35,482 nucleotides of DNA from an uncultured Verrucomicrobia subdivision 3 bacterium (GCA_903913865.1 CAIWMU010000161.1:1-35482), one strand, 5' to 3'; positions 5,977 to 30,044 are shown, numbered from the stretch's first letter. Made by a program: numbers and translations. The notes: generated by a model from the sequence alone, not told the origin.

Positions 5977-6030
5977 CCAGGGGATCTCCCTGGAATACAT
6001 GGCTGGCAGTGACCCGGGAGAATCCCCGGG
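5977..6030 (+). other. Two stem-loops downstream of the rhamnosidase gene
   Basis: CCAGGG (5977-5982) pairs with CCCTGG (5988-5993), and CCCGGG (6013-6018) pairs with CCCGGG (6025-6030). Neither is followed by a T-run, so they may be 3'-end protecting hairpins or weak terminators. Confidence 0.3.
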
Positions 6031-6116
6031 CGCAGAACCTCTCTGCCACCACTCACTTTACGAAATGCCGGATCGGAACTATGGTGCCGCATCGAATTAC
6101 GGATTTCATCAGAACT

Positions 6117-6884
6117 ATGAAAAAATGGATCGTTCGCGGTTTGGTGGCGGTGGTGGTTCTCTCGGTGGTCATCGTTGTCGCAATTGTTCTCTCTCTGGAC
6201 AGCGGCATCAAAAAGGGTGTTGAGTTCGCAGGTCCCAAATTGGCCCAGGTTGATGTGCGATTGAATTCCGTCAGCCTTTCCATCCTGTCCGGCTCTGCCA
6301 AGCTGGAGGGTCTCGTGGTGGGCAATCCTGAAGGCTACAAGACCCCCTCCGCGATCAGCCTGGGTCTCGCAAGTGTCAGTCTGAGTCCCGGATCACTCTT
6401 CTCCGACAAGGTGGTGATCAAGTCAATCAACATCGACTCCCCGGAAATCACCTACGAAACCAACCTCAAGCAAAGCAATCTGGGCAAAATCCTCGCCAAT
6501 CTTGAGGCAATGGCCGGGCCGCGCGACAAAAAGAAGGAGCCCTCAGCGCCCGCTGAAGGAGGAAAAAAGCTCCAGGTGGATGAAATCACCCTGAGCGGTG
6601 GAAAGATCCACGTCAGCATCACCGCCCTTCAAGGAAAGACCTTGGCAGTGCCGCTCCCCACAATTCACATCACAGGACTCGGCCAGGGACCTGAGGGAAT
6701 CACAGGAGCGGAGCTGGCGAAAATCATCCTGACGGAAATCGAAAAGGCCGCCGCGAAGGCATCCTCAGGGAGTATCTCTGATCTGGGAAAACAGGCCCTG
6801 GGATTGGGCTCGGATGCCACAAAGGGAACCACAGACGCCCTGAACAAGGCAACCAAGGGCATCGGAAACCTTTTTAAGAAGTAA
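6117..6884 (+). CDS. Membrane-anchored AsmA-like protein
   Basis: The 255-residue protein has an N-terminal membrane helix (about residues 4-27, rich in V, I and L after MKKWIVRG). An AsmA/DUF748-like beta region follows, with the typical 'VSLSILSGSAKLEGLVVGNPEGY' and 'KSINIDSPEITYE' strands. A basic/acidic linker (DKKKEPSAPAEGGKK) and a second beta repeat (VDEITLSGGKIHVS...LPTIHITGLG) come next, and the tail is Ala/Lys/Gly rich. AsmA-like proteins bridge or organise the envelope and lipid transport in Gram-negative bacteria; this is a short member and its own role is unknown. The ATG at 6117 was preferred to upstream in-frame starts (6009) because it places the basic n-region directly before the helix. 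Confidence 0.62.
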   Translation: MKKWIVRGLVAVVVLSVVIVVAIVLSLDSGIKKGVEFAGPKLAQVDVRLNSVSLSILSGSAKLEGLVVGNPEGYKTPSAISLGLASVSLSPGSLFSDKVVIKSINIDSPEITYETNLKQSNLGKILANLEAMAGPRDKKKEPSAPAEGGKKLQVDEITLSGGKIHVSITALQGKTLAVPLPTIHITGLGQGPEGITGAELAKIILTEIEKAAAKASSGSISDLGKQALGLGSDATKGTTDALNKATKGIGNLFKK

Positions 6885-6908
6885 AACCGCCCACTTTGGA
6901 TCGGCGGG
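6884..6908 (-). terminator. Hairpin terminating the small minus-strand gene (or bidirectional)
   Basis: CCGCC (6887-6891) pairs with GGCGG (6903-6907). On the minus strand it is followed by TTTTAC, so it best serves the gene at 6944-7225. It also lies just after the stop of the convergent AsmA-like gene. Confidence 0.45.
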
Positions 6909-6943
6909 CTTAGGCAATTTCACCTTGCAGGGTGCTCCGGTTG

Positions 6944-7225
6944 CTATCCTTTCTGATTGCGGACTTTATCCTTCTTTTCCTCAAAGTTCGCCCGGATGGT
7001 CTTGCGGTCGCTCACCATCTGCTTGTCGATTTGGGCCACGGCATCCTCATCACCCCGCTCCACGGCCCTTGTCATCTCATCCTTAAGCAGCAGTTCCCGT
7101 TCGGCCAGCTTGGCGGCGCACTGGGATTCAAGCTCGGCAATCTGGCTCTTCTGCTCGCTGGAGAGCTTCACCGTGGGGGCGCTCTTGCTCAACCGCTCCA
7201 TGGCTAATTCGTAGGCTGTCTTCAT
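6944..7225 (-). CDS. Small conserved charged protein, function unknown
   Basis: The 93-residue product begins MKTAYELAMERLSK and is then strongly charged and predicted helical (LSSEQKSQIAELES..., KAERELLLKDEM..., ending KKDKVRNQKG), resembling a coiled coil. From memory, proteins with this start recur in Verrucomicrobiota and Planctomycetota as hypothetical proteins. There is no signal peptide or membrane helix, so it should be cytoplasmic. The frame is open far upstream (to 7732), but that section overlaps the HAD phosphatase gene on the other strand and is not conserved-looking. The ATG at 7225 lacks a clear Shine-Dalgarno sequence. Its function is not known to me. Confidence 0.7.
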   Translation of the reverse strand: MKTAYELAMERLSKSAPTVKLSSEQKSQIAELESQCAAKLAERELLLKDEMTRAVERGDEDAVAQIDKQMVSDRKTIRANFEEKKDKVRNQKG

Positions 7226-7372
7226 TTTTGTTCGATGGCCAGCATGGGACATCAGGCCCCGGAGGTCCAGCGAAACCTCACTTCCGGAATCCCACTCATC
7301 CGTTTTGACTTTTGGCCGAAAAAAGAGATCATGGGGCAGGACAATCCTCCAGCTGTCGGAGGTTCGTTTACG

Positions 7373-8152
7373 ATGCCAATCAAACTTATTTCGACCGATT
7401 TCGACGGGACCCTGTTTGCCGAATTTGAGAATCCACCCATCCCGGTGCGGGTTCAGGAATTGATCTCCTCCCTCCAAAAACAGGGGGCGAAGTGGATCAT
7501 CAACACGGGACGGGACATGTCCAGCCTCATGGAGGCCTTCGGGAGAACACACATCACCATTGAACCGGATTATCTGGTCCTGGTGGAGCGGGAGATTTAC
7601 ACCAACCAGAACTCCAGCTTTGTGGGGCTGGAGCCGTGGAACAGCGACTGCACCGAATCCCACGCGAAGCTCTTTGCCCGGGTTGAACCCGACCTCCCTG
7701 AATTGGTCGAATGGATCCATAAACGGTTCCATGCCAGGACCTATCAGGATGCGTTCTCCCCCTTCTGCATCATCGCCTCCTCAAATGCCGACATGGACAT
7801 CGTGCATGCGCGGCTGGAGGCTTATTGCGCAACCATTCCGGATCTCACAGTCGTCCGGAACGATGTCTATGCACGCTTCAGCCATGTGAACTACAACAAA
7901 GGGGCTGCGTTGCGTGAAATCGCGCAAAGGCTGGGCATCGGCCCTGAGGAGACCTTTGCCGCAGGGGATCACCTGAACGACCTCCCCATGCTCCAGCGGT
8001 GCCATGCGCACTTTCTGGCGACCCCATCCAATGGCGTCCCGGAGGTTCATGCGCAGGTCGGGGCCCAAAATGGGTTCATCAGCACCCTCCATGCCGGAGA
8101 GGGCATTGCGGAAGCCCTCGAGCATTTCATCACCACGACAGGTCGCCTTTAG
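7373..8152 (+). CDS. HAD-superfamily hydrolase (Cof/SPP-like phosphatase)
   Basis: This 259-residue cytoplasmic protein has all four HAD motifs. Motif I is DFDGT with nucleophile Asp9 and Asp11, motif II is the Thr of INTGRD, motif III is the Lys of NYNKGAALREIAQRLGI, and motif IV is GDHLNDLPML. The cap lies between motifs II and III, as in type IIB (Cof and sucrose-phosphate phosphatase) members, which hydrolyse small phosphorylated metabolites using Mg2+. The substrate cannot be read from sequence. The ATG at 7373 has a GGAGG about 9 bases upstream; upstream in-frame starts are possible but add unconserved sequence. It lies 13 bases before the Ppx/GppA gene and is probably co-transcribed with it. 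Confidence 0.87.
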   Translation: MPIKLISTDFDGTLFAEFENPPIPVRVQELISSLQKQGAKWIINTGRDMSSLMEAFGRTHITIEPDYLVLVEREIYTNQNSSFVGLEPWNSDCTESHAKLFARVEPDLPELVEWIHKRFHARTYQDAFSPFCIIASSNADMDIVHARLEAYCATIPDLTVVRNDVYARFSHVNYNKGAALREIAQRLGIGPEETFAAGDHLNDLPMLQRCHAHFLATPSNGVPEVHAQVGAQNGFISTLHAGEGIAEALEHFITTTGRL

Positions 8153-8165
8153 CCCTGCCCCCCCC

Positions 8166-9104
8166 ATGCCACTCCGCCGGAAAGCAGTCATCGATGTCGG
8201 CACCAATTCCGTAAAGCTGTTTGTGGCGGATGTCCGGGGCGGCTCCATTCAACCCCTGCGGGAGGAGAGCACACAGACGCGGCTCGGACGCGGCTTCTAC
8301 GAGGACCATCTCCTGCAGCCGGATGCCATCGCACAGACGGCTCAGGCGGTTGGAACCTACGCCGCCCAGGCCCGGGATCTCGGCGCGGAATCATTGAGGA
8401 TCATCGCAACCAGTGCCGCCCGGGATGCGATCAATGCTGCCGATCTCCTCAAGGCACTCGGGCATGCCACCGGTGTCCCTGTGGAGGTCATCAGCGGCGA
8501 GCAGGAGGCAGCCTGGGTGTGTCAGGGCGTGCTAGGCGACCCGAGGCTCCATAATGGGGGTATCGTGATCATGGATCTTGGCGGTGGCAGCACCGAATTC
8601 ATTCTGGCCGGGGGTGACCTGCCGCAGAGGAGCCGCAGTTTCCCCCTCGGCACCGTGCGGTTGCTGGAGCAGCATCCCCACTCTGATCCACCCCTCCCCG
8701 TCGAACTGGCCCGGTGTCGCTCCTTCGTCAGTGATTTCTTGCAACGGGAGGTGGTTCCGTTCCTCGAACAGGGTTGGAAAGGTCAGGATCACAACCGTCC
8801 GCAAACCCTCATCGGAACAGGCGGGACCGCCACCATCCTGGCCCGGATGGATGGAGGTTTGACCGGTTACGACAGGGAACAGATTGAGGCGCAAACGCTC
8901 GACCCTGCCCGCGTCACATGGCATGTCGAATCCCTGTGGGGGCAAACGCTCGCACAACGCCAATCCGTGTCAGGTTTGCCTCCAAACCGGGCGGACGTGA
9001 TTCTGACCGGGGTGGTGATCTATGAAGCCGTCATGAGGGAACTGCTTCTCAACCGCCTCAACGTCAGCACCCGGGGCCTCCGCTGGGCCGCCCTCATGGA
9101 CTGA
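8166..9104 (+). CDS. Ppx/GppA-family phosphatase (exopolyphosphatase-like)
   Basis: The 312-residue length fits the minimal two-lobe Ppx/GppA core without the C-terminal HD extension of E. coli Ppx. The ASKHA phosphate-binding loops are visible: IDVGTNSVKLFVADV near the N-terminus and IMDLGGGSTEFIL at about residues 135-150. Also seen are the ISGEQEAAW segment and the GTGGTATILARM adenosine/phosphate motif near 220. Family members hydrolyse polyphosphate or convert pppGpp to ppGpp. Which applies here is not decidable. It is coupled to the HAD phosphatase gene upstream (13-base gap), suggesting shared phosphate or stress metabolism. It converges on ligA, with 147 bases between. Confidence 0.9.
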   Translation: MPLRRKAVIDVGTNSVKLFVADVRGGSIQPLREESTQTRLGRGFYEDHLLQPDAIAQTAQAVGTYAAQARDLGAESLRIIATSAARDAINAADLLKALGHATGVPVEVISGEQEAAWVCQGVLGDPRLHNGGIVIMDLGGGSTEFILAGGDLPQRSRSFPLGTVRLLEQHPHSDPPLPVELARCRSFVSDFLQREVVPFLEQGWKGQDHNRPQTLIGTGGTATILARMDGGLTGYDREQIEAQTLDPARVTWHVESLWGQTLAQRQSVSGLPPNRADVILTGVVIYEAVMRELLLNRLNVSTRGLRWAALMD

Positions 9105-16053: not shown

Positions 16054-17577
16054 CTACTTCTTGGGCTTGTCGTAGAACTTCGGATGACAATCGGCGCAGG
16101 TTGTCCCCTTGGTCTTCCAATTCACATGGTCATGACACTTGGTGCAGTCCATCTTCCGGTGGTCCTGATCGAGACCAAAGCGGCTCATGGCATCGTGCTC
16201 AAACCGCAGATGCTCACCCTTCCACCCTTCGGGGCCGTGGCATTTGGTGCACCCCTCCCCCAACGCACCCTTGTGGGGATCATCCGACTTATGGCAGGTA
16301 ACGCAGAACAATCCCGCTTTAGCGACCTGACCCGACTGCGCGATTCTGGCGGGTTGATGGCAGGAACTGCACTTGGCCGTCAAGTGTTTCCCTGTGATGT
16401 GCTCACCGTTGGCCTCATACTTCAGAATGTGGTCAGAGCCCGCATACTTCTTGGGCATGATCTCCATCGAATGGCAGGAGACGCACGTTGCACCGTATTC
16501 CTCCGGATGTTTCACCTTGTGGCATGTTTCGCAGGCCATTCCCAGGCCCCTGAACTGGGCAGATGCCAGCTTGCCCCCCTCGGGCCTCGGCTTGTGGCAC
16601 TTGATGCAATCCACCTTGGCATGTTTGCCGATCAACGGGAACTTCGTGTCCTTCGCATGTTCAAACTGCAACGCCTTCCGGCTGAACTCAACAGGAGCAG
16701 CGTGGCACTTCGCGCAGGCCCGTTCGAACTGACCATCATGCGGATCCTTGTGACAATCCACACATTCCGATTTGAGGCTCCTGAACTGAGCTGAGGCTAG
16801 CTTCATCTCCGGCGGGGCGGGAATATGACACTTCTCACACTGGGCAGCGGCATGCTTTTCGATCAACTGGAACTTTGCGTCCCTGTTGTGGACAAAGGAA
16901 ATCAATTCCCGCTTGAATCCATTCGGGGAATGGCACTTGGTGCAATTCCGCTCAAACTGGTTCCGATGTGGATCCTTGTGGCAGTCCGCACACTCAGACT
17001 TGAGATTGTGGAACTGCGCGGTCCCCAGATGCTCTCCCGGCGCCTTGGGAACATGGCATTTCTCACAGGCCACAGCCTCATGCTTTGCCACCAGCGGGAA
17101 CTTGGTGTCCTTGTTGTGAACGAATAACAGGTTCTCCTTCCTCCAACCCAGAGGGGAATGGCAGGTGGTGCAGGCAGCAGCGAATTGCTGACCGTGCGGT
17201 TCCTCATGACAGACTTTGCACTCCTGAGTCAACCCCTTGAACTTGGCGGAACTCAGGAATGCATCCGGGCCGTCCGGTTTGTGGCACTTTCGACAATCCG
17301 TTACGGCATGCTTGCCCACAAGCTTGAACACCGAATCATTTGTATGGGAGAACTTGAGGTTCCTTCCCGTCCATCCTGCGGGAGTATGGCACTTGTCGCA
17401 GGAGACCGTGAACTGACCACGATGGGGATCTTTATGACAATCCGTGCAGGCCTCGTGTTTCAATCCCATGAAGTAAAGCCCCGGCGATTCCGGAGTGCGC
17501 TTGTTCTTGTGACACTCGTCGCACTGTAGCTTCGCGTGTTTTCCCTCAAGCTCAAAGCCGGTGTCCTTGTGATTGAA
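16054..17577 (-). repeat. Tandem tri-heme coding repeats (about 76 residues, 228 bases)
   Basis: Units begin with an FxH motif followed by GKHA..C..CH at residues 851, 927, 1002, 1078, 1156, about 1233 (degenerate) and 1309 of the giant protein. Periods are 75-78 residues. Each full unit holds three CxxCH sites and the segments 'AQF..LK.EC..CHKDPH' and 'QF...C.KCHSP.G'. The last unit is truncated, with two hemes. Three hemes precede the array. Confidence 0.9.
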
Positions 17578-20127
17578 CGTCTCCTTGACAAGCGGGATCA
17601 GTGTATTCGTGCCGGTGGGATGTTCCTTATGACAGATGAAACAATTTCCCTTGAGGGTTCCGTGATAACCAATTCCCTTAAGGCGGTGATCCTTGACAAT
17701 CTCATGGCACTTTTCGCAATTCGAATCGGGAATCCCACCGGTGTAGGAATGACATTTGGTGCACCTGTCCGCACTGGCCCCCATCCGGTGTTTCGTTGAA
17801 AGCTGCCGGGGACTGATCATCGAGGAGAACTTCTTCTCAAACTGCATCTGCGCGGAAGTTGCCAGTCCCTTGTGAAATGCCCAGGCGCCAAACGAAGCCA
17901 TCACCACGGACAAAACCAACATGACCAGAGCCGCCCTAACGGCAAAGATCTCCCGGAGGGTCTTCGTGGCATCCACCGGTTCCCCACGTCCGAAGCTTTG
18001 GAACTTCGCATCCCCGTGACCGTGACTCTGGCCATGGGCCTCCGCATGACCATGGCCATGCACATCCCCATGACCATGCCCGTGGGCGTGGGAAGAGTGG
18101 GGCATGCTCAATGGATGGTGGTGCTCTATGTATTCCATCGGGGACCAGCCATGGAAAATTCCCGGGAGGGAGATGCGTGTGCCCGGGTTGATGAAGGCGA
18201 GGAACAGGTGTCCCCCGGTGGTGTTCATCGTCGAAAAGAACAGTGCGGCATGGATATACCAGGGGAGCAATGTTCCCCCCTTGAAATGAATCAGGATGCC
18301 GGTGACGGTGAACGTAAAGAAGTAAACGATGACCAGAAAGGCGTTGATCTTCTGCCCCGTGTTGAACCGCCCCGCCGGAGGCACAACCACCTTTTTGTCG
18401 AATCCACTCCGGATGCTCTGAACGATCCAGAGCAGGTCATTCGGCCCCCAGGTGAGCACCACCTTGATGTGCATCCAATGGACCTTTGGCCGCATCAGGA
18501 TCACCAGCGGCATGCCTATCACCCATATCGTCGCAAAGAACTTGTGGGTCAGGACAACCCGGGCGACGGTCCGGTGGTCTATGCTCCAAAAGCGGGATGC
18601 CAGCATCACGATGCCGCTGAGCATCAGCACAAGAAACGGCAGGGCATTGACCCAATGGAGAAGCAACTCCGGCTTGACGAAGCGCCTGAACCTGGCGAAC
18701 CGCAGATAATAGCGGTCATGCTCCGGATCGTATTCGATCAACTTCCCCTTCGACAGCTTCTTGAGCAGGTCAAGAATTGCCATCACGAAGAGCAGTAGAT
18801 CATCAGCCGGGTCGTTGCCCAGTTGTGCGGCAACCGGCAGGAAGAGACACAGGGTGTCCCTCAACTCAGCAGGTGTGGGGCCCACTTTGACGTAGATGTT
18901 GCCGTCAGCCAGCCGATGCACGAAAAGCGCATACGCCAGGCGCAGGGCCATCGCCTTGTGCTCTGGTTCAGCATCGCACTTCTTGATGCGCGTCTCCAGT
19001 TCCATGGCGGTTTCGATAACCGCCTCAACCTCGGGCAGTTCCCGGAACTCAGGAGTGCTCCAGACGGTGCGCCAATAACTGTCAAAACAAATCAATCCCG
19101 GCCGATCCTCTGGAACGGTCTGGTCGAGCAATTGCTCGATACTCCCTGATAATGTGACCAGCAGATGTCCGGCTTCCGCGAACGGAATCCTGACACAGAT
19201 GTCGATGTAATCCGGATGAACAGGAAACTGGGCGACGAACTCATCCATCCTCTCCTGCATGCCGCCGTAGAATCCGGTGAACTTAGTGAGGTAGGCCCTG
19301 ACGGCCTCTTTCTGCGCGGCCGTCTTCTTAACCAATCGCCCGGCTACCACATGCTGCCACCCCCGGGCCTCCATCTTCACCTGGGCGAAACGGTCCTTCA
19401 ACCCATGCAAGCCGTCTGTGGCCACCCCCGCATGCTCATGATCAAGAATCGGCTCCAGAACACTGGCCAGGAACCGCAACTTCGTCCTGCGGCACGCCGT
19501 CCCGATCTCTCCCAGAAACTTTACATCCGCCAGAAGTTCCTTGTCTGTCCGGCTCCCCAAATAATCCTGCAGATCATCCACCACCAGGAGCAACCCATGG
19601 CCGGAAAAGTGATCCTCGAACCGCGCCATCATCCCTGCGATCAACTCCCCATCCCCCTCGGGTACCGGTGCGGCCGGGAAAGTGTGGGAGACTCCCAACT
19701 TTGAAAAATACTCCTTCAACCGGGCCAGAAGCAGGTCCCTGAAGGACTTCGTTCCCTCATCCACCTCCATCCGGATCACCTTGAAGCGGCCGGCGATCGC
19801 GTCCAACCCGACCCCTTCCCCCCGGACCTTCAACACGTCCAACCCGCGGTTTAGTTCAGCGAGGTCGGCATGCTCTGCGATACTTGAAATCAGCGACAGC
19901 CAGAAGGTCTTGCCACCACCTCTGGACCCTACCAGTAAAACCGCTTCGCCGCTCCCCTGAAGGCCGATCTGCAGGTTTGGAAAAACCGAACGGGTCAGGC
20001 ACTCCGCCATGCCCGCAGAAATGACGCAATCAGTAACCGCCCGGACCGCCCCTTCCCTTAGATCAGCATCAGGCAGCTGGTCGAAATCCTTGATCGGCTC
20101 AAACTTGAATAGCTCGCGATATTTCAT
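16054..20127 (-). CDS. Giant fusion: DUF6079-like ATPase, cytochrome b, 23-heme c-type cytochrome
   Basis: This single 1357-residue frame has five parts. (1) Residues 1-480 are a P-loop ATPase: Walker A GSRGGGKT at 67-74, Walker B LLLVVDD at 179-185, and segments such as KDRFAQVKM, RMDEFVAQFPVHPDYID and EDRPGLICFDSYW that I recall from DUF6079 proteins of phage-defence loci. (2) Residues 488-650 are a four-helix cytochrome b-like domain (helices about 488-513, 524-545, 594-615 and 623-645) with candidate heme His491, His528, His626 and His640. (3) Residues 669-706 are a His/Gly-rich loop. (4) Residues 730-753 are a fifth helix. (5) Residues 789-1348 carry 23 CxxCH motifs. N-in topology plus five helices puts the ATPase in the cytoplasm and the hemes in the periplasm. 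By analogy with Geobacter CbcL it may oxidise quinol. The ATPase role is unknown. It is 49 bases downstream of the NHL/Ig gene and ends the operon. Confidence 0.9.
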   Translation of the reverse strand: MKYRELFKFEPIKDFDQLPDADLREGAVRAVTDCVISAGMAECLTRSVFPNLQIGLQGSGEAVLLVGSRGGGKTFWLSLISSIAEHADLAELNRGLDVLKVRGEGVGLDAIAGRFKVIRMEVDEGTKSFRDLLLARLKEYFSKLGVSHTFPAAPVPEGDGELIAGMMARFEDHFSGHGLLLVVDDLQDYLGSRTDKELLADVKFLGEIGTACRRTKLRFLASVLEPILDHEHAGVATDGLHGLKDRFAQVKMEARGWQHVVAGRLVKKTAAQKEAVRAYLTKFTGFYGGMQERMDEFVAQFPVHPDYIDICVRIPFAEAGHLLVTLSGSIEQLLDQTVPEDRPGLICFDSYWRTVWSTPEFRELPEVEAVIETAMELETRIKKCDAEPEHKAMALRLAYALFVHRLADGNIYVKVGPTPAELRDTLCLFLPVAAQLGNDPADDLLLFVMAILDLLKKLSKGKLIEYDPEHDRYYLRFARFRRFVKPELLLHWVNALPFLVLMLSGIVMLASRFWSIDHRTVARVVLTHKFFATIWVIGMPLVILMRPKVHWMHIKVVLTWGPNDLLWIVQSIRSGFDKKVVVPPAGRFNTGQKINAFLVIVYFFTFTVTGILIHFKGGTLLPWYIHAALFFSTMNTTGGHLFLAFINPGTRISLPGIFHGWSPMEYIEHHHPLSMPHSSHAHGHGHGDVHGHGHAEAHGQSHGHGDAKFQSFGRGEPVDATKTLREIFAVRAALVMLVLSVVMASFGAWAFHKGLATSAQMQFEKKFSSMISPRQLSTKHRMGASADRCTKCHSYTGGIPDSNCEKCHEIVKDHRLKGIGYHGTLKGNCFICHKEHPTGTNTLIPLVKETFNHKDTGFELEGKHAKLQCDECHKNKRTPESPGLYFMGLKHEACTDCHKDPHRGQFTVSCDKCHTPAGWTGRNLKFSHTNDSVFKLVGKHAVTDCRKCHKPDGPDAFLSSAKFKGLTQECKVCHEEPHGQQFAAACTTCHSPLGWRKENLLFVHNKDTKFPLVAKHEAVACEKCHVPKAPGEHLGTAQFHNLKSECADCHKDPHRNQFERNCTKCHSPNGFKRELISFVHNRDAKFQLIEKHAAAQCEKCHIPAPPEMKLASAQFRSLKSECVDCHKDPHDGQFERACAKCHAAPVEFSRKALQFEHAKDTKFPLIGKHAKVDCIKCHKPRPEGGKLASAQFRGLGMACETCHKVKHPEEYGATCVSCHSMEIMPKKYAGSDHILKYEANGEHITGKHLTAKCSSCHQPARIAQSGQVAKAGLFCVTCHKSDDPHKGALGEGCTKCHGPEGWKGEHLRFEHDAMSRFGLDQDHRKMDCTKCHDHVNWKTKGTTCADCHPKFYDKPKK

Positions 20128-20176: not shown

Positions 20177-21790
20177 CTAGGGCACCCATCTCAAGCGGTA
20201 AAAGCGGATGGCATGGTTCGTGGCCTCAAAATCCACAAACTCCAAAAGCCCCGCATCCTGGGCAAAATCCCTGATCGATTCCCACTGCTGCAGGTCGCTT
20301 GAGGCATCGAGGGAATAAGCATAGCCCGGGTCAAGGTTCAAGGTCAGGTGGAATATCTGGTTTGTCGCCATCGTGGAGGAGACAATCTCCATGACCGAGG
20401 GAGGAATCACCACCGAAAGATTCGCCACCTCGCTCACGACCGATCCCGCCTCATTGCTGACGACCACGGTGTAACTCCCGGACTGGATGCCCTGCACATC
20501 CGCCAATTCCAGCACACGGTTGATGGCTCCACTGATATTGTTTCCGTTTTTTCGCCACTGGTAGGATGGCGATGTCCCATCCGCAACCACTGCCATCACC
20601 ACATTCGCCCCACGCAACACGGTCTGGCTTTCAGGCTGACTCACGATTCTGGGCGCATCCATCACCACAACCCGGGTGATGCTACTCGTGAAAGTGCCCC
20701 ATGAACTGGCCACCACCACGGAATACAGCCCCCCATCACCCACTCCAGTTGATGGAATCGCCAGGGTCATGTTTGTCGCCCCGCTAATGGGAAGTCCACC
20801 CTTCCACCACTGACACGCAAAATCTCCAGCCCCACCTGAGGCAACCGACAAAGTGAGATCCCCACCGGCGGGAATAACCCCATCCGAGGGCTCCACATGA
20901 AGATGGAAAAAGGAATCCAACCCGAACAGTTCCACCCTGCGGGTATTGGCAGAGGCCACAAACAGACGGTTCGCCGCATCCAGAGCCAATCCGCCCGGGG
21001 ATGCCAGCTGCCCTGGAAGTGATCCAAAAGACCCCACAGTGGACACGGACGCTCCTGTCGCCGCGTCAAAAACCTTCACCAACCCTTGAAAAGTATCTGC
21101 CACGTAAAACCGCCCCGCCTTGTCAAAAAACGCCGCCTGCGCCCGCCCGGATGTGGCAGTTGCTCCGAGTTTGAAACTGCGCGAAAACGCCCCCGCCCGG
21201 TCAAAGACCTGGCAGCGGTCATTGTTTTGATCCACAACAAAAACCTCCCCATTCGTCCGGACACCCAGCCCCGCCGGGAAACTAAATTCCCCACCCCCCT
21301 GCCCCGACCCGCTAAACTGGTTCGTCAACACCCCACCGACATATACCTTCACCAGGTTGGCCCGGCTGTCGGACACATACACCCGCCCCCCATCCACATC
21401 GGGATCAATGGCAATATGGTTTGGCATCAGAAACTCGCCATCCCCAACCCCCAACTTGTAGCGGGGATTCCAATCCGCATCAAAAACAGTGACACTCCCG
21501 GAGGCCTCCTCGGCAAGATAAATGCTCCCCTGCTGGTCGATGGCAATCCCGAGAGGCCCGGCGAATCCACCACGCCCGTCAACCTTCCTTCCAAAGGCAT
21601 CAAAGACCACCACTTCTCCAGCCGAAGGCTCCGTGACATAGGCCCGCGCCTGCGCGTCTATGGCAACGCGTGCCGGAGCCTGGAGCGATTTGGAGTAACC
21701 GCCGAGCCATGTCGCCACCGGGGCGGCACTCTGGCCCACCGCACTCAGGGCGATGGTCAACAAATACAGGGCAATGCAGGTTCTTTTCAT
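20177..21790 (-). CDS. Secreted NHL beta-propeller with Ig-like domains
   Basis: The 537-residue product has a signal peptide (about 1-20, LYLLTIALSAVGQSA). NHL-type propeller repeats follow over about 30-300, with recurring 'AIDxxxxxYVxExxxGxVxVFD' strands. Two Ig-like domains come next (about 310-470, CQWWKGGLPISGATNMTL and YQWRKNGNNISGAINRVLEL). The C-terminal module (YSLDASSDLQQWESI...IRFYRLRW) is of a kind abundant in secreted verrucomicrobial proteins. Propellers and Ig domains mediate protein contacts, so it may scaffold the cytochromes outside the cell; this is inference. Its ATG overlaps the stop of the radical SAM gene (ATGA), so it is co-translated with the assembly genes. Confidence 0.87.
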   Translation of the reverse strand: MKRTCIALYLLTIALSAVGQSAAPVATWLGGYSKSLQAPARVAIDAQARAYVTEPSAGEVVVFDAFGRKVDGRGGFAGPLGIAIDQQGSIYLAEEASGSVTVFDADWNPRYKLGVGDGEFLMPNHIAIDPDVDGGRVYVSDSRANLVKVYVGGVLTNQFSGSGQGGGEFSFPAGLGVRTNGEVFVVDQNNDRCQVFDRAGAFSRSFKLGATATSGRAQAAFFDKAGRFYVADTFQGLVKVFDAATGASVSTVGSFGSLPGQLASPGGLALDAANRLFVASANTRRVELFGLDSFFHLHVEPSDGVIPAGGDLTLSVASGGAGDFACQWWKGGLPISGATNMTLAIPSTGVGDGGLYSVVVASSWGTFTSSITRVVVMDAPRIVSQPESQTVLRGANVVMAVVADGTSPSYQWRKNGNNISGAINRVLELADVQGIQSGSYTVVVSNEAGSVVSEVANLSVVIPPSVMEIVSSTMATNQIFHLTLNLDPGYAYSLDASSDLQQWESIRDFAQDAGLLEFVDFEATNHAIRFYRLRWVP

Positions 21791-23319
21791 GTCAACACCT
21801 CGGTTTTGGCCGGTTTGGTTTTCCGTTTGAAGAACTTCTTTATCCGCTGCACCGGGCAGCGGCTTTCCGATTCAGCAAGATCCACGAACGCCTTCATATC
21901 CGGAGGAAGCTCCAGCCCCGTCATCTGATCCTTCAGATAGGAATGCTCCATCAGCAACTGCATGAGGGACTTCATGAATTCCTGTTTCCAGGCAGGCATG
22001 CTGAACATGCGCTTCATTTTTGTGACGTAGAACTCCCGGAATCCCCGGAACAGCTCCGCACGCACCTCGTCCAGGGTCATGGCAATCGGCTTCACCACCG
22101 GCTCCACCAGGTTGTACTTACGATAGTCCTTCGTCGCGATGTGGTCTTTGACATCCTTATAGAGATCTGCATACGGCCAGGGGGTGATCGCCAGGAAGAA
22201 TGCCATGTCAGGATCGTAAAACTTCGCCAGTTCAATGGTGCGGGCCATCTCCTCCTTGGTTTCATTCGGCATCCCCATCACGAAGGATGTCTCCGAAATC
22301 ATGCTGTGCTCGTTGATCAACTCAATCGCCCGCTTGCCCTGCTCAACCTTCGCATCCTTCTTGTAGAGATCCAGAGTCGCCTGGTTGACCGATTCCACGC
22401 CAACGTAGATGTGCTCGATTCCCGCCTTCCGGTAGCGGGGCATCAAGGGCTCATCCCGAACAATGTCATCCACCCGGGTCTCCAACAGCAGGCTCACTCC
22501 GAGGTCCCTCTCGATAAGCAGATCAAGAATGCGGCTCCACCGGGTCGCGTCCAGGGTTGGAATCTCGTCAGCGATCATCGCCACATCAACGCCATAACGC
22601 CCCTTGAGCATCTGCAGTTCGTCCACGAATTTCTCCGCTGAAACCGCCCGCCACGATTCCTTCCAGAACAGACGCTGCGAGCAGAAGGAACAGTGCTGCT
22701 TGCATCCCCTCGAGGAGGAGACGATCGCCAGGGTCGATCCCGGCTTGACGCGGTAGCTGTACTCTTTCCATGGAACCAGATCCCACGCAGGTTCCAGCGT
22801 GTCGAGGTCACGGACGAATCCGCGCTTCAAAGTGGCCACAATCTGCCCCCCCTCGCGGAATGCAATCCCTCGCACTTTCTTGAGATCCGCATCCGCCTTC
22901 CACGCATCCATCAACTCCACCGCAGCCACTTCGCCCTCGCCGCGAATGATGACATCGATTTCCGGGTGCTCCCTCAAAATCTCATCATACATGAAGGTCG
23001 GATGGGTATTCCCCAGTGCCGTCAGCACCCCGGGAATCTCCTCCTTCGCCACCCGGCACACTTCCATGCCGTCCATCACCGTAGCCGTGATGCAGGAAAC
23101 AAACACCGCATCAGGTCGCTCCCGCCGGAGCGTTTCGCGCACCTGTTCCAGCGTGTGAAAACGGGTCATCGCATCGTAAAGGGCGACCCCATAGCCCGCC
23201 TTTTTCAACGCGCCTCCCACGTAAAGCAGGCCCAACGGAAGCCATGAACCAGCGGACTCCACCACTCCTGAGTGGTAGGGAGGGGTCACCAACAGAATTT
23301 GTGGGCGTCTCGGTTTCAT
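21787..23319 (-). CDS. B12-binding radical SAM protein
   Basis: The 510-residue protein has an N-terminal cobalamin-binding Rossmann domain (about 1-150, with ILLVTPPYHSG, GGALKKAGYGVALYDA and GNTHPTFMYDEILREHPEIDVIIRGEGE). A radical SAM barrel follows, with the [4Fe-4S] ligands Cys206, Cys210 and Cys213 in CKQHCSFC. A helical C-terminus completes it. Relatives (BchE, HpnJ and similar) catalyse methylation, cyclisation or other C-C chemistry, usually with SAM and sometimes cobalamin. The substrate cannot be told here. It overlaps the CcsA gene upstream and the NHL/Ig gene downstream by four bases each (ATGA), so it is tightly tied to cytochrome assembly. The DNA encodes a classic Cx3Cx2C motif and nothing looks broken. 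Confidence 0.9.
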   Translation of the reverse strand: MKPRRPQILLVTPPYHSGVVESAGSWLPLGLLYVGGALKKAGYGVALYDAMTRFHTLEQVRETLRRERPDAVFVSCITATVMDGMEVCRVAKEEIPGVLTALGNTHPTFMYDEILREHPEIDVIIRGEGEVAAVELMDAWKADADLKKVRGIAFREGGQIVATLKRGFVRDLDTLEPAWDLVPWKEYSYRVKPGSTLAIVSSSRGCKQHCSFCSQRLFWKESWRAVSAEKFVDELQMLKGRYGVDVAMIADEIPTLDATRWSRILDLLIERDLGVSLLLETRVDDIVRDEPLMPRYRKAGIEHIYVGVESVNQATLDLYKKDAKVEQGKRAIELINEHSMISETSFVMGMPNETKEEMARTIELAKFYDPDMAFFLAITPWPYADLYKDVKDHIATKDYRKYNLVEPVVKPIAMTLDEVRAELFRGFREFYVTKMKRMFSMPAWKQEFMKSLMQLLMEHSYLKDQMTGLELPPDMKAFVDLAESESRCPVQRIKKFFKRKTKPAKTEVLT

Positions 23320-24143
23320 TGGAAGTAGGCCGAATGCATTGAGGGAAAAACGAACGGGAAAATCAGCACGGTCAGGACTGAGAGGACAAAGCAGGCGATC
23401 GTTCCCCAGGCAGTCGCACGGGCGCCCAGTTTGAAAAACAGCCGTGCATGCAACAAAATCGCATAGGCGAGCCAGGTCACGAGTGACCAGGATTCAATCG
23501 GGTCCCAACCCCAGTAGCGTCCCCAGGATTGATTGGCCCAAATCGCACCGGCACCGATGGTGGTGGTCCAGAAGACGAACCCGAACCCGATGAAACGCAC
23601 CGTGTAGGCCTCCACGACATCCGCACCCGGCAGGCGGTCCAGCCAGCGACCCGTCTCCCCCTTGAGTTTCCTCAGGAGAACGACTGCCGCCCCAAGCGCC
23701 AGAATAAAGGCCCCCACTGCAAGTTTGTTGAACACAACATGGAAAATCAGCCACATCGAGCGCAATGTCGGCGGGAGGCTGCGAGCTTCAGGATTTGTAA
23801 ACAGCCCAAACCCCATCATCAGGATCGACACAGGCAGGGCCACCAGGGCGACCGATCCCCAGTTCGGCTTCCGCCAGACGAAGATCAGCAGCATGACAAT
23901 CGCAATCCACGCATTCGAGGAGAGCACCTCGTATTTGAGCATGTAAGGCCCGTGCCCCACATGCACATAGCGCAGAACCAAACCGATGGTGTGCGGCACC
24001 AAACCGGCCGCTGTGGTCCATGTCGCCAGCCGGATCTTGTCAGGCCGGGCAAAAATCAGGGCCCAGGCAAACAGGGTTACCCCCCCGATATAGAGTGCCA
24101 CAGCACCCCAGTGTAATGTTGCTTCCCACGCAAATGGACTCAT
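23316..24143 (-). CDS. ccsA: Cytochrome c biogenesis protein CcsA (ResC-like), system II
   Basis: The 275-residue integral membrane protein has eight or so hydrophobic segments and the heme-binding WGWDPIE motif at 211-217 (the W-rich WWD-type signature). Candidate heme-ligand histidines lie at 51, 135, 232 and 270. With ResB it forms the heme exporter and apocytochrome ligase of system II. The ATG at 24143 is chosen because it overlaps the ResB stop in ATGA and begins MSPFAWEATLHWG. An in-frame start at 24212 would add 23 residues inside the ResB gene. It sits directly downstream of resB and serves the heavily heme-laden proteins of the cluster. Confidence 0.93.
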   Translation of the reverse strand: MSPFAWEATLHWGAVALYIGGVTLFAWALIFARPDKIRLATWTTAAGLVPHTIGLVLRYVHVGHGPYMLKYEVLSSNAWIAIVMLLIFVWRKPNWGSVALVALPVSILMMGFGLFTNPEARSLPPTLRSMWLIFHVVFNKLAVGAFILALGAAVVLLRKLKGETGRWLDRLPGADVVEAYTVRFIGFGFVFWTTTIGAGAIWANQSWGRYWGWDPIESWSLVTWLAYAILLHARLFFKLGARATAWGTIACFVLSVLTVLIFPFVFPSMHSAYFQ

Positions 24144-26134
24144 GGCTTTTGAACCTCCGCTTTGTTGCTCGAATTGGCTGTAGTGTGCCCGGCACCCCGC
24201 TCGGCGATCCAAGTTGTCTGTTTCCGGCTGACCTTCGGGTCGGAGGTAAACTGAATTTCCTCCACCAGCCAGGCCCCCTCGGTCTTCTTGAACACGTAAA
24301 GCATCTCGTAGGAATCCTTTGAAGCCTCTCCCACCTGTTCCCCGCTGCCTATCTTCCTATCGCGGTAGCGCCACTGCTCCTTCGTCCTCACCCGCATTTC
24401 ATCCTTCTGCTGTTCGACTCCCGTGATGTCCAGCGAAAGCAACTCCGAATCAAGGGTCAAACCGAGATCCAACCGCACTCCGATCAGTCCCAAAATCTTC
24501 CGCCCCTCTTTCACACCGACGACAGGATCTATCAATTTCACATCCCCACGGCGATAGGCTTCCGAAACGACCTGGTTGTAATGTTCCACCAACCCCCGTG
24601 CCTCCTCCCGTGCGCTGGGCTGGCAGCCCGGTCCGAGAACCAACCCGCACAGAAGCAGGGCAAAGACAGAGGCACCAGCGGTCCTTCCACCCACCGGATC
24701 GGCCTTTTCCACCGATGCAGCGCTCCCGGCTGGTGCGCCTTCGACACTTTTGCGGGGGGCGATATCCGCTGCGGATCCGCCTTCCTCCTCGACCATCCGC
24801 TGGAATCTCTCAGCGAACAACGGTGCAAACCGCTGCGGCTTCATTGCCAGAAACACCCGCTCCGTTGCGCCAAGCGGGGTGATCACAAGGCATCCATCCA
24901 GCTTGATGAGGGTGAAAATAATCACCGAACCCGCCATGATCAGGGTAAACCCGGCATAGGCCAGCCATAGAGCGGAATCCCTGCTGCCCCGCAAACGGGC
25001 CCAAAACGGTGTTCCACGCAACGCCAACCGTCCCCCATCCGGCAGGAGAGCCGACTGACCCACCCGGGCATCTCCCGTGAATAGAAGCGCTCCATCCTTC
25101 ATGACTCGAAGTTCCACCAGGGATGGATGCTGCCCCTCCGGCCCCACCCTCGCACGAACATAGGCCCTCATCCCCTCTGGCCCCCCAGATATCCCTTCAT
25201 ATCGCCCTTTACCCACACCGGCGAGCAGCGCAGCCTCCCGCTTCGTCTCCACTCCGGGCTTCTCCCACTCCAGAAGCGCCGCTGGCCCAAAATCCGACCC
25301 CAGGAACAATCTACCACCACCCACCTTCAGGTCATGGTTGACCGCTAGCTGGGATTTCTCTGCTCCCGCCGCCCCCTCCACCGAGACCTCAACCTGCAAC
25401 TCCCGCAGGTCTCCGTCCTTGTAGTGGGCCGACTTCACACTGTTCATTGTCACCGGTGAATTCAGACGGAAGGGCTGGCCCAGAATGCCCGAAAACTGCC
25501 CGGCCCAGGCCGCAGCGGTGGGTGGCAGGGTCTCACCCTCAACCAAATCCACGACCGCTTCCGTCCCGAACAATGCCCGACACGCCCCCCCCACAATCAC
25601 GAGCATCAGCCCCACGTGCAGCATGACGGAACCGGTCAAACCAAACCGTTTCTCAGCCCATACCTTTACCAGAGGCTCAGTTCCCCCCCCCCTCGCAGGC
25701 CGCTCAAACTGTGCCCTAAGGGGGGCGGAACTGAAATGAGCTGGCGTCATCCGCTGCGTCCATCCCACTCGCAACCGCCTGACCTGCTCGAGAATGACGA
25801 TCCAAAGCGAGGCTGTCGCCATCAGGGTCAACCCGAGAAACCAGCGGCTGTGAAACAGATCATCCAGGGCAAAGACTCTCACCAGCATCGACTGCATCTC
25901 CCCGCCTTCGCGCAACCGTGCCAGACTCTCCACCGTTGCGGATCCGGCCTGCGGCAGGCTCGCCCCAAGCCCGGTCGCAAACGCAATCGCCACGATCTCC
26001 CCGACAATCACCAGCGGGGAACGGAGGAACCTCCGCAGGGCGAGGGCCTTTAATCGCAACATCTCCTTCCAAAAGCCCAAACCTGAGGCGTTTGGATGTC
26101 CGATGCCGCGAGCGCTATGTGGGGCGCTTTTCAC
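24140..26134 (-). CDS. resB: ResB cytochrome c assembly protein fused to an extra C-terminal domain
   Basis: The 664-residue product starts with a ResB/Ccs1 body (about 20-430) with four membrane helices (about 41-60, 100-116, 168-187 and 389-411) and a large periplasmic loop. A Ser/Ala/Glu-rich linker (about 445-485) leads to a fifth hydrophobic segment (487-503) ending at Cys504. After that comes a soluble domain (about 510-630; VVGVKEGRKILGLIG..., TKEQWRYRD..., YVFKKTEGAWLVEEIQF) that resembles the ARC6/IMS (DUF4101) fold. ResB proteins of system II normally end after the fourth helix. N-in topology places the added domain in the periplasm. The start is GTG at 26134 in a GTGA overlap with the cytochrome stop. 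An ATG at 26062 is less likely because its purine-rich site abuts the start codon. Confidence 0.82.
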   Translation of the reverse strand: MKSAPHSARGIGHPNASGLGFWKEMLRLKALALRRFLRSPLVIVGEIVAIAFATGLGASLPQAGSATVESLARLREGGEMQSMLVRVFALDDLFHSRWFLGLTLMATASLWIVILEQVRRLRVGWTQRMTPAHFSSAPLRAQFERPARGGGTEPLVKVWAEKRFGLTGSVMLHVGLMLVIVGGACRALFGTEAVVDLVEGETLPPTAAAWAGQFSGILGQPFRLNSPVTMNSVKSAHYKDGDLRELQVEVSVEGAAGAEKSQLAVNHDLKVGGGRLFLGSDFGPAALLEWEKPGVETKREAALLAGVGKGRYEGISGGPEGMRAYVRARVGPEGQHPSLVELRVMKDGALLFTGDARVGQSALLPDGGRLALRGTPFWARLRGSRDSALWLAYAGFTLIMAGSVIIFTLIKLDGCLVITPLGATERVFLAMKPQRFAPLFAERFQRMVEEEGGSAADIAPRKSVEGAPAGSAASVEKADPVGGRTAGASVFALLLCGLVLGPGCQPSAREEARGLVEHYNQVVSEAYRRGDVKLIDPVVGVKEGRKILGLIGVRLDLGLTLDSELLSLDITGVEQQKDEMRVRTKEQWRYRDRKIGSGEQVGEASKDSYEMLYVFKKTEGAWLVEEIQFTSDPKVSRKQTTWIAERGAGHTTANSSNKAEVQKP

Positions 26135-28383
26135 CAGTTTTCAGTTCCGGTTCCCGTTGCGTGATGGCCACAGGAGGTGCGGCAGTTGGCGTTTTCAGTG
26201 TATGAGCCCACCGCCGCTTTCGTGAACTGCTGCATACCGACTGTCGTGAGGGTGTTGTTATAGGCGTAGCGGGCGGGCATGGTGCCATCCCTGTCTGCGA
26301 TCAACCGGGACATCTTCCCGCCATGTGGAACAACGATATGACAAACATAACACTGGGAACTGCTGTGGTCCCCCTCACTATGCCCCCTATGGGTTGATTT
26401 GTTGTGGCAATTGGCACACCAACTGTTGTTATAGTTGGCGAGAGTAACGTTGGGCCAATTGTTCGCGTTGGTGCCACGCAGCATGAACTGGGCTGCCGAG
26501 CCATGGGGTCCCTGGGCCGCGGGCAGCGCGGCGTCCGTGCTGTGACAGTCGGCACACATCATGGTTTGGGTTCCAAGATTCACGTTCCACGGAGCCTTCA
26601 TCGCTGCCGCAAGCAGGCCCCGCTTTCCACCCACTGCAATGGAATTGGAGTAGGAGTCCAATCCTACGACAATCGGATGGCCAGACTTGTTCTTGGGGCT
26701 GAACTCCAGGGCAAGGTCCGTTTCAATCGGGGTGGCGACGCTACCATTGGTGGAAACTCCGTTCGGGGCAACACCGGCCACCCATCCATAGCTGGAGTGG
26801 CATTTGAAACAAATCTGGTATTCGTTTGTTGCCCCGGGGTTTGCAGGGATCAGTGTAAAAAGGTTCGTGGTGATGGCCTGGAAATTTGTTAGAGCCGTGA
26901 AGTTTACGGCGACTCCGGAAACCCCAAGCATCGGCCCATCCACCACATTGCGGGTGGCCGTAGGTGTGTTCGTGAATGAGACCGATCCAACTTTGGCTTT
27001 GTGCGCGTTATGGCAATCCGAACACTCGACCGATCGCACCCCGACCTGCTGGGCATCGACCACCCGGTGATGTATTCGCTTCGCGAAATCAGCTTCCACC
27101 TGCTTGACGGCAGGCCCGTTCGTTCCATGGCAGGTGAAGCACATGCGCTCCTCAAAATCGGCCAGCAACTTGGGGTAGTGGTTCGTCGGAGCCGCAGTAT
27201 CCGGCCATCCATGCACCGGATGGCAGTTCACACAACTGCCCCGGTCGAGGACGTTCGTGCGGGCGGGCAACAAGGACCCCCGCCTGCCGCCGGGCCAGAG
27301 GGTGGCGCTGTTGGTGGTTGAGAAATGGGCGGCCGGAGTGGCGGTGTCTGCAAGGGTATGGCAATCAATGCAGAGCGATCGACTGCTGGCGACCCGGGTC
27401 AACTTTCCATCCGTTGAAACAGTCTTGTGAACATCGTGGCAGCTCAGGCAGCCGAAGTTGGTGGTTCCTGTCTGGGTCGGCAGAAGGGTTGGAGACTTGT
27501 GCTTGGCATCCACCGGGGTCTTGATCCCAACAGGGTGGGTTCCTGTAAGTGCGTTGGTTGCGTTCATCCCGGCATGGCAGTCAACGCACATCTGATCGGT
27601 CTGCGTGTTCATGCGCATGAAGTGACGTCCGCTGCCGGTCCCCCGCCCACCGTATGCAGGGGCGGTGGCATCAAAGGGGGCGAACTCCTGGCTGTGGCCA
27701 TCATGACATGCGGAACAGCTCACGACCCCGTCCACCATGTGCGCAAGCATCGTGGTGTTGGTCGGCTGACGAACTCCCGCACGCACATAAAGGTTCCACT
27801 TGTCGCCAGGCTGAAAGGATGTGGCGGCCCCATCGAGAAATTTCACCGATACACCCGCATCCAACAACACGGAGACCCCGGTGAGCACATTCGTTCCCGC
27901 TCCTCCCCCCGGAATCGTGGCCGACCACCCGAACCGGGCCACCCCTGCGGCTCCTGCCGTGGTGATCGTCAAAGTGTAAACCTTGGGATAGTAACCCGTG
28001 TAGGTGCCAAGCGGCTTGACTGAACCGGTGGAGGGGGTGACCGCCCCGCCCAAAAACTGCACATGCCCCGCCGCACTCGCATCCCACCGGTGGGATGTCC
28101 CGGAAGCCGCGGCTCCGACCACATTCGTTGGCAAACCCGGGTATGGCAGCGCCTGATCACTCGATGCAAATGCCAGCGTGGAAGCGGAACCGCCCGATTG
28201 ATGGCAGCTCAGACACACATTGGCATCCCCCGCAACCGCCGTCAGGTTCCCTCCCGGGGATGAATGTGGAATATGGCAGGAGCCACAAAGATCTGCTGTG
28301 ACATGCGGCGGATCAATGGCAGGCGCCGCCGCCGGGAGCAGGATTGAGACTGCGAAGACCAGCGACTTCAAGTGTAGCTTCAT
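26131..28383 (-). CDS. Secreted multiheme c-type cytochrome, 13 CxxCH plus one atypical site
   Basis: The 750-residue product has a signal peptide (MKLHLKSLVFAVSILLPAAAPA). There are 13 canonical CxxCH motifs, starting with CGSCH (Cys33) and CLSCH (Cys57), and a last site of form CX3CxH (Cys734, Cys738, His740). Paired CxxCH...HxxH and 'DCHNPH/NAH' patterns resemble the doubled-CxxCH families found in porin-cytochrome conduits. A heme-free beta-rich insertion (about 125-205) interrupts the heme chain after heme 2. The ATG at 28383 lies two bases after the stop of the upstream 12-heme gene and gives the signal peptide; the open frame extends to 28614 within that gene. Probably an outer-membrane or surface electron carrier working with the barrel at 30044. 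Confidence 0.87.
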   Translation of the reverse strand: MKLHLKSLVFAVSILLPAAAPAIDPPHVTADLCGSCHIPHSSPGGNLTAVAGDANVCLSCHQSGGSASTLAFASSDQALPYPGLPTNVVGAAASGTSHRWDASAAGHVQFLGGAVTPSTGSVKPLGTYTGYYPKVYTLTITTAGAAGVARFGWSATIPGGGAGTNVLTGVSVLLDAGVSVKFLDGAATSFQPGDKWNLYVRAGVRQPTNTTMLAHMVDGVVSCSACHDGHSQEFAPFDATAPAYGGRGTGSGRHFMRMNTQTDQMCVDCHAGMNATNALTGTHPVGIKTPVDAKHKSPTLLPTQTGTTNFGCLSCHDVHKTVSTDGKLTRVASSRSLCIDCHTLADTATPAAHFSTTNSATLWPGGRRGSLLPARTNVLDRGSCVNCHPVHGWPDTAAPTNHYPKLLADFEERMCFTCHGTNGPAVKQVEADFAKRIHHRVVDAQQVGVRSVECSDCHNAHKAKVGSVSFTNTPTATRNVVDGPMLGVSGVAVNFTALTNFQAITTNLFTLIPANPGATNEYQICFKCHSSYGWVAGVAPNGVSTNGSVATPIETDLALEFSPKNKSGHPIVVGLDSYSNSIAVGGKRGLLAAAMKAPWNVNLGTQTMMCADCHSTDAALPAAQGPHGSAAQFMLRGTNANNWPNVTLANYNNSWCANCHNKSTHRGHSEGDHSSSQCYVCHIVVPHGGKMSRLIADRDGTMPARYAYNNTLTTVGMQQFTKAAVGSYTENANCRTSCGHHATGTGTENW

Positions 28384-28385
28384 AG

Positions 28386-30044
28386 TCAATATTTGGAGTT
28401 GTGGTCCTTGCCGTGGCAGGAAAGGACACAGGATCCATGGGACATACCCTGCGCCTGAAACGAACGTGCGCCGGTAACCACATTGGGATTGAAGTTGATT
28501 AGACGGGGATTCGGAGATCCATGCGGGTCGTGGCAGGTCAGGCAGGATGTCATCCCCATGTGCTGGAGATGCTGCGGCCATGCGGTGTTGACAAAATTGT
28601 GGCACTTGTTGCAAAGCGCCGAATTCCCGGGGTTGGAACCGATATCGGCAAAACTCAAAGGTTTCTCAAGGAGCGGCTTATAGGCTGACCCATGAGGTCC
28701 CTTCGCCCCGCCCGGAGTGGATGCCGAATCACTGTTGTGGCAGTCTCCACACCCGATCCTGCTCGCGGTATTCCAGGGGGCCTTCAAGCTGGGCACATTC
28801 GGGTTTGCTCCAGCCGAAACAACCGGGTGAAAAGAGTTTGTCCCGCTCGAACTTGTGAATTCGGCACGTGTGTTCAGCTGGGGAAACTGGCGGGGAACCA
28901 TCGACGGACCCTTTGCCGTGTCGGCATGACAGCGGAAGCAAAGCTCATACTCATAGGTGATCTGGGAAACCGCCCCGCCGCCAACGTTCACGCCCCGGAC
29001 ACCTGCAAGGGCACCTGAAACTCCCGCCCCCAGGGGGGTGGTTGAATCATTGCTGGCGTGCGGATTATGGCAATCTGCGCACTCCACATGCCGGTTCGCA
29101 CCGGCTGGAACCAGTGGCTGCTCCATCGGATCATGGACGCCGGTATTATCGATGACCGGATGGACGCTCGGCTTGTTGAACTCGGCAAGGATGTTCTTAG
29201 CAGCCACATTGCCGTTGTGGCAGGTGTAACAATTCTGTTCCTCGGCGGCATAGTTGAGGAGGCGCTGCCTTCCCCCTGCCCCATGTGGATTATGGCAACT
29301 CTCGCAGGCGTTCGCCGCAACCGTCTTCTCAGTGGTGTGCGTCCAGGGATTCGGGGCTGCCCCATTCCACGTCTTTGTGGAGGTTCGATGGCTTCCCTCG
29401 TTCCAATTCTTCATGTTGTGGCACGCAACACACAGCGCGGATGCCGTGTTGTTCATCACGAGAAAACTGGGGTTCCCGTTGTCGTGCGCGTCGTGGCATG
29501 AGGTGCACTGTAACTGGTTGTTGGCATCCAGATGCACACCGCTGGATGTGGGCGGCGGTCGCAACTGCCCGTCCATGGCCACCAGCGCGGCATCGTATCT
29601 GAATGAAATGGGGTGGTCGTCTGAAAGATCCGTCCCCAGGTTGGATCGTCCCGGAGGCATCTTCGCCACAGCGCTCTTCATCGGAATCGGACTCGAACGA
29701 CTGCGAACCATGCCGAGCGCCACTGTCCCGTCATGGCAGCTGAGACACAGTTTGGAGGACCCTGTCGGCTGCCCGATGGTCGCCTTCGTGGTGCTGCTGC
29801 TGTAGGGAATGTAGGAAGCCCTTGAATCGTAGCGATTCCACAGTGCCATTTCACTGTTCGCGGAATGCGGCGTGTGGCAGAAGATGCAGATCTCCGTGCT
29901 CGCACCAGCAGCGGACTTGTTGGCTGTCAGGGTCCCCACCCCTGTGACGGAAAGGTTGTGCTTGGATTGGCCAACGTTGGCCGCACCCGCACCCATTGCC
30001 AGAAGGCAGACCAGAAAGAATATCACTGAACCAATGGCCCTCAT
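28386..30044 (-). CDS. Secreted multiheme c-type cytochrome, 11 CxxCH plus one atypical site
   Basis: The 552-residue product begins with a signal peptide (SVIFFLVCLLAMGAGAA). Its first four hemes (residues 53-209, CIFCH/CLSCH/CTSCH/CVACH) follow the same order as the separate tetraheme protein at 33316, including CHTPH, LWNR/LWNH, YSS, CHDGTVA, DHPI and CxSCH.(T/A)HD. Seven further canonical sites follow, and a C-terminal site of form CX3CH (Cys539, Cys543, His544). Its ATG shares one base with the porin stop (TGATG) and is preceded by AGGAGGAG (30053-30060), a good ribosome site. The cytochrome would act in the periplasm or within the barrel at 30044. Confidence 0.88.
   Translation of the reverse strand: MRAIGSVIFFLVCLLAMGAGAANVGQSKHNLSVTGVGTLTANKSAAGASTEICIFCHTPHSANSEMALWNRYDSRASYIPYSSSTTKATIGQPTGSSKLCLSCHDGTVALGMVRSRSSPIPMKSAVAKMPPGRSNLGTDLSDDHPISFRYDAALVAMDGQLRPPPTSSGVHLDANNQLQCTSCHDAHDNGNPSFLVMNNTASALCVACHNMKNWNEGSHRTSTKTWNGAAPNPWTHTTEKTVAANACESCHNPHGAGGRQRLLNYAAEEQNCYTCHNGNVAAKNILAEFNKPSVHPVIDNTGVHDPMEQPLVPAGANRHVECADCHNPHASNDSTTPLGAGVSGALAGVRGVNVGGGAVSQITYEYELCFRCHADTAKGPSMVPRQFPQLNTRAEFTSSSGTNSFHPVVSAGANPNVPSLKAPWNTASRIGCGDCHNSDSASTPGGAKGPHGSAYKPLLEKPLSFADIGSNPGNSALCNKCHNFVNTAWPQHLQHMGMTSCLTCHDPHGSPNPRLINFNPNVVTGARSFQAQGMSHGSCVLSCHGKDHNSKY

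Follow-up and report, generated by a model that had tools for sequence, protein, structure and literature searches.

We analyzed a 35,482-nucleotide stretch of DNA from an uncultured Verrucomicrobia subdivision 3 bacterium (GCA_903913865.1, CAIWMU010000161.1:1-35482; the whole stretch is hereafter called the window), and found that one gene (positions 16054–20127) encodes a protein in which the N-terminal half of BrxC, an ATPase of the bacteriophage exclusion (BREX) defence systems, is fused to an FdnI-type cytochrome b and a c-type domain with 23 CxxCH heme sites. The gene, like every other feature of the window described below, lies on the minus strand; it is a single open frame, as the original prediction from the DNA had described, with an ATG start, no internal stops and a product of 1357 residues. 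The fusion is real and conserved, recurring far more often than chance would give. Judging from the sequences, the protein is reasonably likely to serve a Verrucomicrobia porin–cytochrome conduit as its quinol dehydrogenase in the inner membrane and its heme wire in the periplasm, with a BrxC-derived cytoplasmic module that most likely does not act as a motor. We found no published fusion of BrxC to a multiheme cytochrome in open PMC papers, in agreement with the earlier statement that no described protein is known to join the two.

The full fusion, including the AAA+ core, was found in the window's genome (a 6.27-Mb draft in 267 contigs) and in seven other Verrucomicrobia metagenome-assembled genomes (MAGs), namely G001, which belongs to the same genus as the window's organism, G023, G463, G482, G443, G184 and Umea2p3_bin-1644, with 20 or 23 CxxCH sites. 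Four further genomes of one genus, g39 (G625, G626, G639 and G635, the last with its copy split over two contigs), encode a form without the AAA+ core, in which about the first ten residues are retained before the frame resumes in the lid, and in which the lid, winged helix, b-heme ligands and 20 hemes are kept. Among 320 genomes of the order, 10 carried either form of the fusion and 8 carried a stand-alone BrxC, both occurring together only in the window's genome; among 388 genomes of the phylum, the fusion was detected only in the window's genome and G184. A contig scan with two short peptide patterns returned four loci, all from Verrucomicrobia, but missed fusions that other searches had found, and therefore says nothing firm on absence from other phyla; no viral relatives were confirmed when these were sought. 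In a tree of the BrxC region, whose root is not fixed, one branch (support 99/98) separated the 8 fusions from 13 stand-alone Verrucomicrobia BrxC proteins, which fits a single fusion event. Each of the three outcomes that the original prediction had named beforehand as fatal to it turned out the other way: the match to the DUF6079 family was strong, the frame was unbroken in homologues and the two halves were fused in them.

The assignment of the N-terminal half to the BREX ATPases, also foreseen, was supported by both sequence and fold. Residues 1–476 matched DUF6079 (PF19557, E = 1.9e-136), the match ending at profile position 470 of 1238, and PADLOC named the same stretch BrxC (5e-137). 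A phmmer search of this half against the PDB gave nothing useful, whereas the profile and fold searches did find BrxC. In the structure model (predicted local distance difference test, pLDDT, 50 overall and mostly 60–86 within the AAA+ core), the strand order of this half was that of AAA+ proteins, and a helical bundle and a winged helix were also present. Its closest PDB folds were the N-terminal structures of BrxC (9zll/9zdx; Foldseek E = 3.8e-5), with ORC/Cdc6 proteins behind; the VIA alignment with 9zll_D covered 313 residues of model residues 18–476 (Z = 17.6) at a root-mean-square deviation of 11.9, a high value that is probably due to a poorly predicted lid. The ORC/Cdc6-type AAA+ core (residues 38–253; 19369–20016), the lid bundle (residues 254–405) and the winged helix (residues 406–478; together with the lid, 18694–19368) of a BrxC N-terminus are thus all present. 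The published BrxC fragment 1–551 likewise consists of the AAA+ domain and first winged helix, and the fused part stops at the same place (PMC13326643; PMC12839542).

We compared the ATPase motifs of the 8 core-bearing fusions with those of 11 stand-alone BrxC proteins. The Walker A motif (GSRGGGKT, residues 67–74; 19906–19929) was intact, its Lys and following Thr/Ser being conserved in 8/8 fusions, as was the Walker B Asp. However, the Walker B motif of the window's protein (LLVVDD, residues 180–185; 19573–19590) ends in Asp185 in place of the catalytic Glu, at the position that aligns to E269 of the Acinetobacter BrxC. Only G001 and G023 have Glu there; the window, Umea2p3_bin-1644 and G184 have Asp, G463 and G443 have Gly and G482 has Gln, so that the catalytic Glu has been lost in 6/8 fusions compared with 0/11 stand-alone proteins. 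The arginine finger (Arg246, aligned to R330 of the Acinetobacter BrxC) was lost in G023, G463, G482 and Umea2p3_bin-1644 (4/8) and kept in all 11 stand-alone proteins. On the tree of the cytochrome part, the states at position 185 require five changes, which amount to five losses when Glu, constant in BrxC, is taken as ancestral; bare Glu/not-Glu parsimony without this assumption needs two. The AAA+ deletion in g39 is one event (100/100). A codon comparison indicated that the whole frame is under purifying selection; silent changes were near saturation, and ratios of nonsynonymous to synonymous rates (dN/dS) are therefore not quoted. Mean identity reached 0.63 in cytochrome b and 0.54 in the c domain, against 0.37–0.39 in the BrxC half. 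Because its amino-acid divergence exceeds that of cytochrome b while silent sites are near saturation, the BrxC half appears constrained but more loosely so than cytochrome b. A relaxation of selection confined to the AAA+ core was not shown, as core, lid and winged helix were about equally diverged in the fusions.

The membrane part (residues 485–675; 18103–18675) was identified as the FdnI/HydC-type cytochrome b that had been proposed. Residues 480–673 matched the formate dehydrogenase gamma-subunit model TIGR01583 (E = 6.6e-15), below the cut-off of that equivalog model, and the protein is thus not assigned as an FdnI orthologue. His491, His528, His626, His640 and Gly591 were invariant in 11/11 sequences and Asn589 was present in 10/11. 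We take the pairs 491/640 and 528/626 to be the b-heme ligands and Asn589/Gly591 to be the quinone site, on the basis of the alignment and the FdnI structure; with these assignments, the four helices, both His pairs and the quinone-site residues of this family are all present. Hydropathy indicated segments near residues 488–517, 524–545, 593–617 and 723–753, and the structure model placed helices at residues 486–513, 518–545, 588–616, 621–646 and 731–768, the fifth membrane helix corresponding to residues of about 731–753 (17869–17937). Between the fourth and fifth helices lies a His-rich linker (residues 676–722; 17962–18102). The His-rich loop of the original prediction is present here, but its HGHGHG-type insert (residues of about 683–707; 18007–18081) was found in the window's protein only and is absent from the other aligned homologues. 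The loop was accordingly rejected as a functional core; the insert itself might bind metal.

The periplasmic c-type domain (16057–17763) carries the 23 expected CxxCH sites at residues 789–1348, with Cytochrome_C7 matches in seven stretches (Pfam). The sites are arranged in tandem 76-residue triheme c7-like modules with spacings of 25, 16 and 35, and the 20- and 23-heme proteins differ by a single such module. A phmmer search of this domain against the PDB gave no matches at E ≤ 0.01. The four plus one helices and the attachment of c hemes in the periplasm together suggest that the N-terminus lies inside and the c hemes outside.

Upstream of the fusion, the window encodes a cytochrome cluster: an NHL/Ig-domain protein adjoining the fusion (20177–21790), a BchE-like B12-binding radical SAM protein (21787–23319), CcsB-type (23316–24212) and ResB-type (24140–26134) cytochrome c assembly proteins, a 13-CxxCH multiheme cytochrome (26131–28614), an MtrA-like cytochrome with 11 CxxCH (28386–30044), a putative outer-membrane porin of 661 residues (30044–32029), an NHL beta-propeller protein (32127–33263) and a tetraheme cytochrome (33316–33948). 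The porin has no Pfam match and is named from its position and length; the pairing of porin and periplasmic multiheme cytochrome that defines such conduits is otherwise present. Where the contig is long enough, the fusion is again accompanied by the porin, 11-heme MtrA-like, tetraheme and NHL genes, and the ResB, CcsB and radical SAM genes recur in a subset of the clusters. The radical SAM protein is among the most conserved neighbors (75–83% identity among those fusion loci where it occurs) and might be linked to cytochrome or lipid modification. Homologues of the putative porin occur in 52/320 genomes of the order.

Other loci of the same genome bear on this arrangement. Contig C171 (387–12383) holds a second porin cluster, which encodes a 19-heme protein as well as a CbcL-type protein whose 9 c hemes precede an FdnI cytochrome b, and on contig C93 (8259–11928) a NapC/NirT-domain cytochrome with three helices, an ImcH-like arrangement, lies beside an 11-heme CbcL-like protein. 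Since these loci have CbcL-type or CbcL-like proteins, the fusion plausibly fills the place of the quinol oxidase in the first cluster. A search of the genome with Cytochrome_C7 failed to return the window and was not used for cytochrome counts. Contig C83 encodes a full-length BrxC and a PglXI methyltransferase, which suggests a type 3-like BREX locus.

These observations are consistent with the CbcL-like role first proposed, given the combination of cytochrome b and multiheme c domain beside a porin cluster. The protein would work like CbcL with the domain order reversed and the BrxC half in front. Menaquinol would be oxidized at the FdnI-type site (Asn589/Gly591), and electrons would cross the two b hemes (His491/His640 and His528/His626) and then pass along about seven triheme c7-like modules to the MtrA-like/porin complex; run backwards, the enzyme could possibly be a quinone reductase. 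The BrxC half would be a module derived from BREX that binds nucleotide and serves in docking or self-association, with ATP at most a ligand and with the lid and winged helix as its minimal retained part. Published work on BrxC shows that fragment 1–551 self-associates and binds ATP but, on its own, not DNA, that ATP binding controls self-association, and that a Walker B E→Q substitution blocks most hydrolysis and favors the ATP-bound dimer (PMC13326643). We prefer a non-motor module because of these published properties, in particular the E→Q dimer and the lack of DNA binding, together with the losses of Glu, of Arg and, in g39, of the AAA+ core observed here; the ATPase portion has the look of a retired motor and not of a power source.

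Several points weigh against this interpretation. G001 and G023 keep the Walker B Glu and G001 has both Glu and arginine finger, so that hydrolysis may be retained in some fusions, and the E→D change in the window's protein need not abolish activity. The structure model is weak, and its c domain is unfolded (pLDDT 34) and unusable. Moreover, porin clusters without the fusion exist, and the link between fusion and conduit is therefore not obligatory. We sought an inner-membrane replacement in such clusters, but their 8–9-heme proteins have no cytochrome b helices. As a separate observation, at the G445 locus (5243–9086), two 9-heme proteins carry an extra long C-terminal region without CxxCH that appears by eye to be thioredoxin-like and then TPR-like.

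We also considered the possibility that the BrxC half is a passenger, a slowly decaying relic that supplies the start and the folding of a membrane protein. Its faster evolution relative to the cytochrome parts and the loss of the AAA+ core in one genus would agree with this, but every homologue found retains the half in frame, all 8 core-bearing fusions have the P-loop, amino-acid changes are far fewer than the near-saturated silent changes, and lid and winged helix survive where the core is gone; we therefore regard a mere passenger as unlikely. ATP-coupled or ATP-gated electron transfer, in which the AAA+ part drives or switches the flow by hydrolyzing or sensing ATP, would agree with the conserved P-loop Lys and Walker B Asp, with purifying selection on the core and with the control of BrxC self-association by ATP binding, and both versions had been raised in the original prediction. 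The proposal that ATP energizes electron flow is disfavored by the frequent loss of catalytic Glu and arginine finger and by g39, which deleted the entire core and retains cytochrome and cluster. Gating by ATP binding alone is possible in core-bearing proteins but cannot be universal in the family, because that genus lost the whole core, and coupling or gating taken together seems quite improbable. A narrower version would be a tentative and rather doubtful addition to the docking module: by binding ATP without hydrolyzing it, the BrxC half would cluster the quinol dehydrogenase or uncouple it, and electron export would thereby track cellular ATP; if true, a phage-defence ATPase would have been domesticated as a respiratory regulator.

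A redox-linked defence protein, in which BREX factors or DNA are drawn to the BrxC half and phage attack or redox state alters membrane electron flow, is very unlikely. True kinship with BrxC, the BREX-like locus on C83 and the docking of BrxB:PglZ on the BrxC N-terminal half (PMC13326643) would favor it, but no BREX genes lie among the window's neighbors, the order genomes combine fusion and stand-alone BrxC in one case alone, and the isolated BrxC fragment does not bind DNA. Finally, an assembly or gene-calling artefact joining two adjacent genes was rejected as having a negligible chance, since, although every relative is a MAG, the identical join with its junction motif (F-R/K-R-F ... P-E ... 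H-W) recurs in many independent MAGs of several families.

The fusion joins phage defence and extracellular respiration, fields that are normally apart: half of a defence AAA+ protein has been captured by what would be an electron-export enzyme and kept across several Verrucomicrobia families as its catalytic residues erode. It thereby offers a natural experiment on the role of the BrxC N-terminal half without hydrolysis or DNA binding, and it is a candidate for the step at the inner membrane in the porin–cytochrome pathway that has been proposed for Verrucomicrobia of humic, anoxic waters.

We compared the protein with known systems. Relative to BrxC/PglY, the DUF6079 scaffold ATPase of BREX, residues 1–478 match the AAA+ domain, lid and first winged helix, whereas the C-terminal alpha+beta domain, second winged helix and coiled coil of a protein of about 1200–1300 residues are absent, cytochrome b and c replacing the C-terminal ~770 residues; the catalytic Glu is usually lost, and PglX, PglZ and their partners are not alongside, the neighbors being cytochrome and biogenesis genes. 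The tandem triheme "nanowire" cytochromes of Geobacter consist of repeating c7-like modules, as does the c domain here, but the fusion is predicted to be membrane-anchored and part of a quinol enzyme. With FdnI, the cytochrome b556 of Escherichia coli formate dehydrogenase-N (1kqf), it has in common a four-helix diheme cytochrome b and an N-x-G-Q-K stretch, although the sequence match is weak (PDB profile E = 0.72) and the locus has no formate dehydrogenase subunits. The Verrucomicrobia porin–multiheme clusters of He et al. 2017 (PMC5615132) are alike in phylum, in porin and multiheme cytochromes and in the proposed electron export; the text of that paper, on which this comparison is based, mentions neither a cytochrome b nor an ATPase fusion. 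A parallel in design is the CbcL/MtrH/MtoC group, in which an FdnI/HydC-type diheme cytochrome b is likewise joined with a multiheme c domain and encoded next to a porin–cytochrome cluster, and whose CbcL homologues are reported with 3–23 CxxCH (PMC6295460). However, CbcL has N-terminal c hemes and a C-terminal cytochrome b, usually of six helices (PMC6295460), whereas the fusion reverses this order, with the BrxC half followed by cytochrome b, one helix and then the c hemes.

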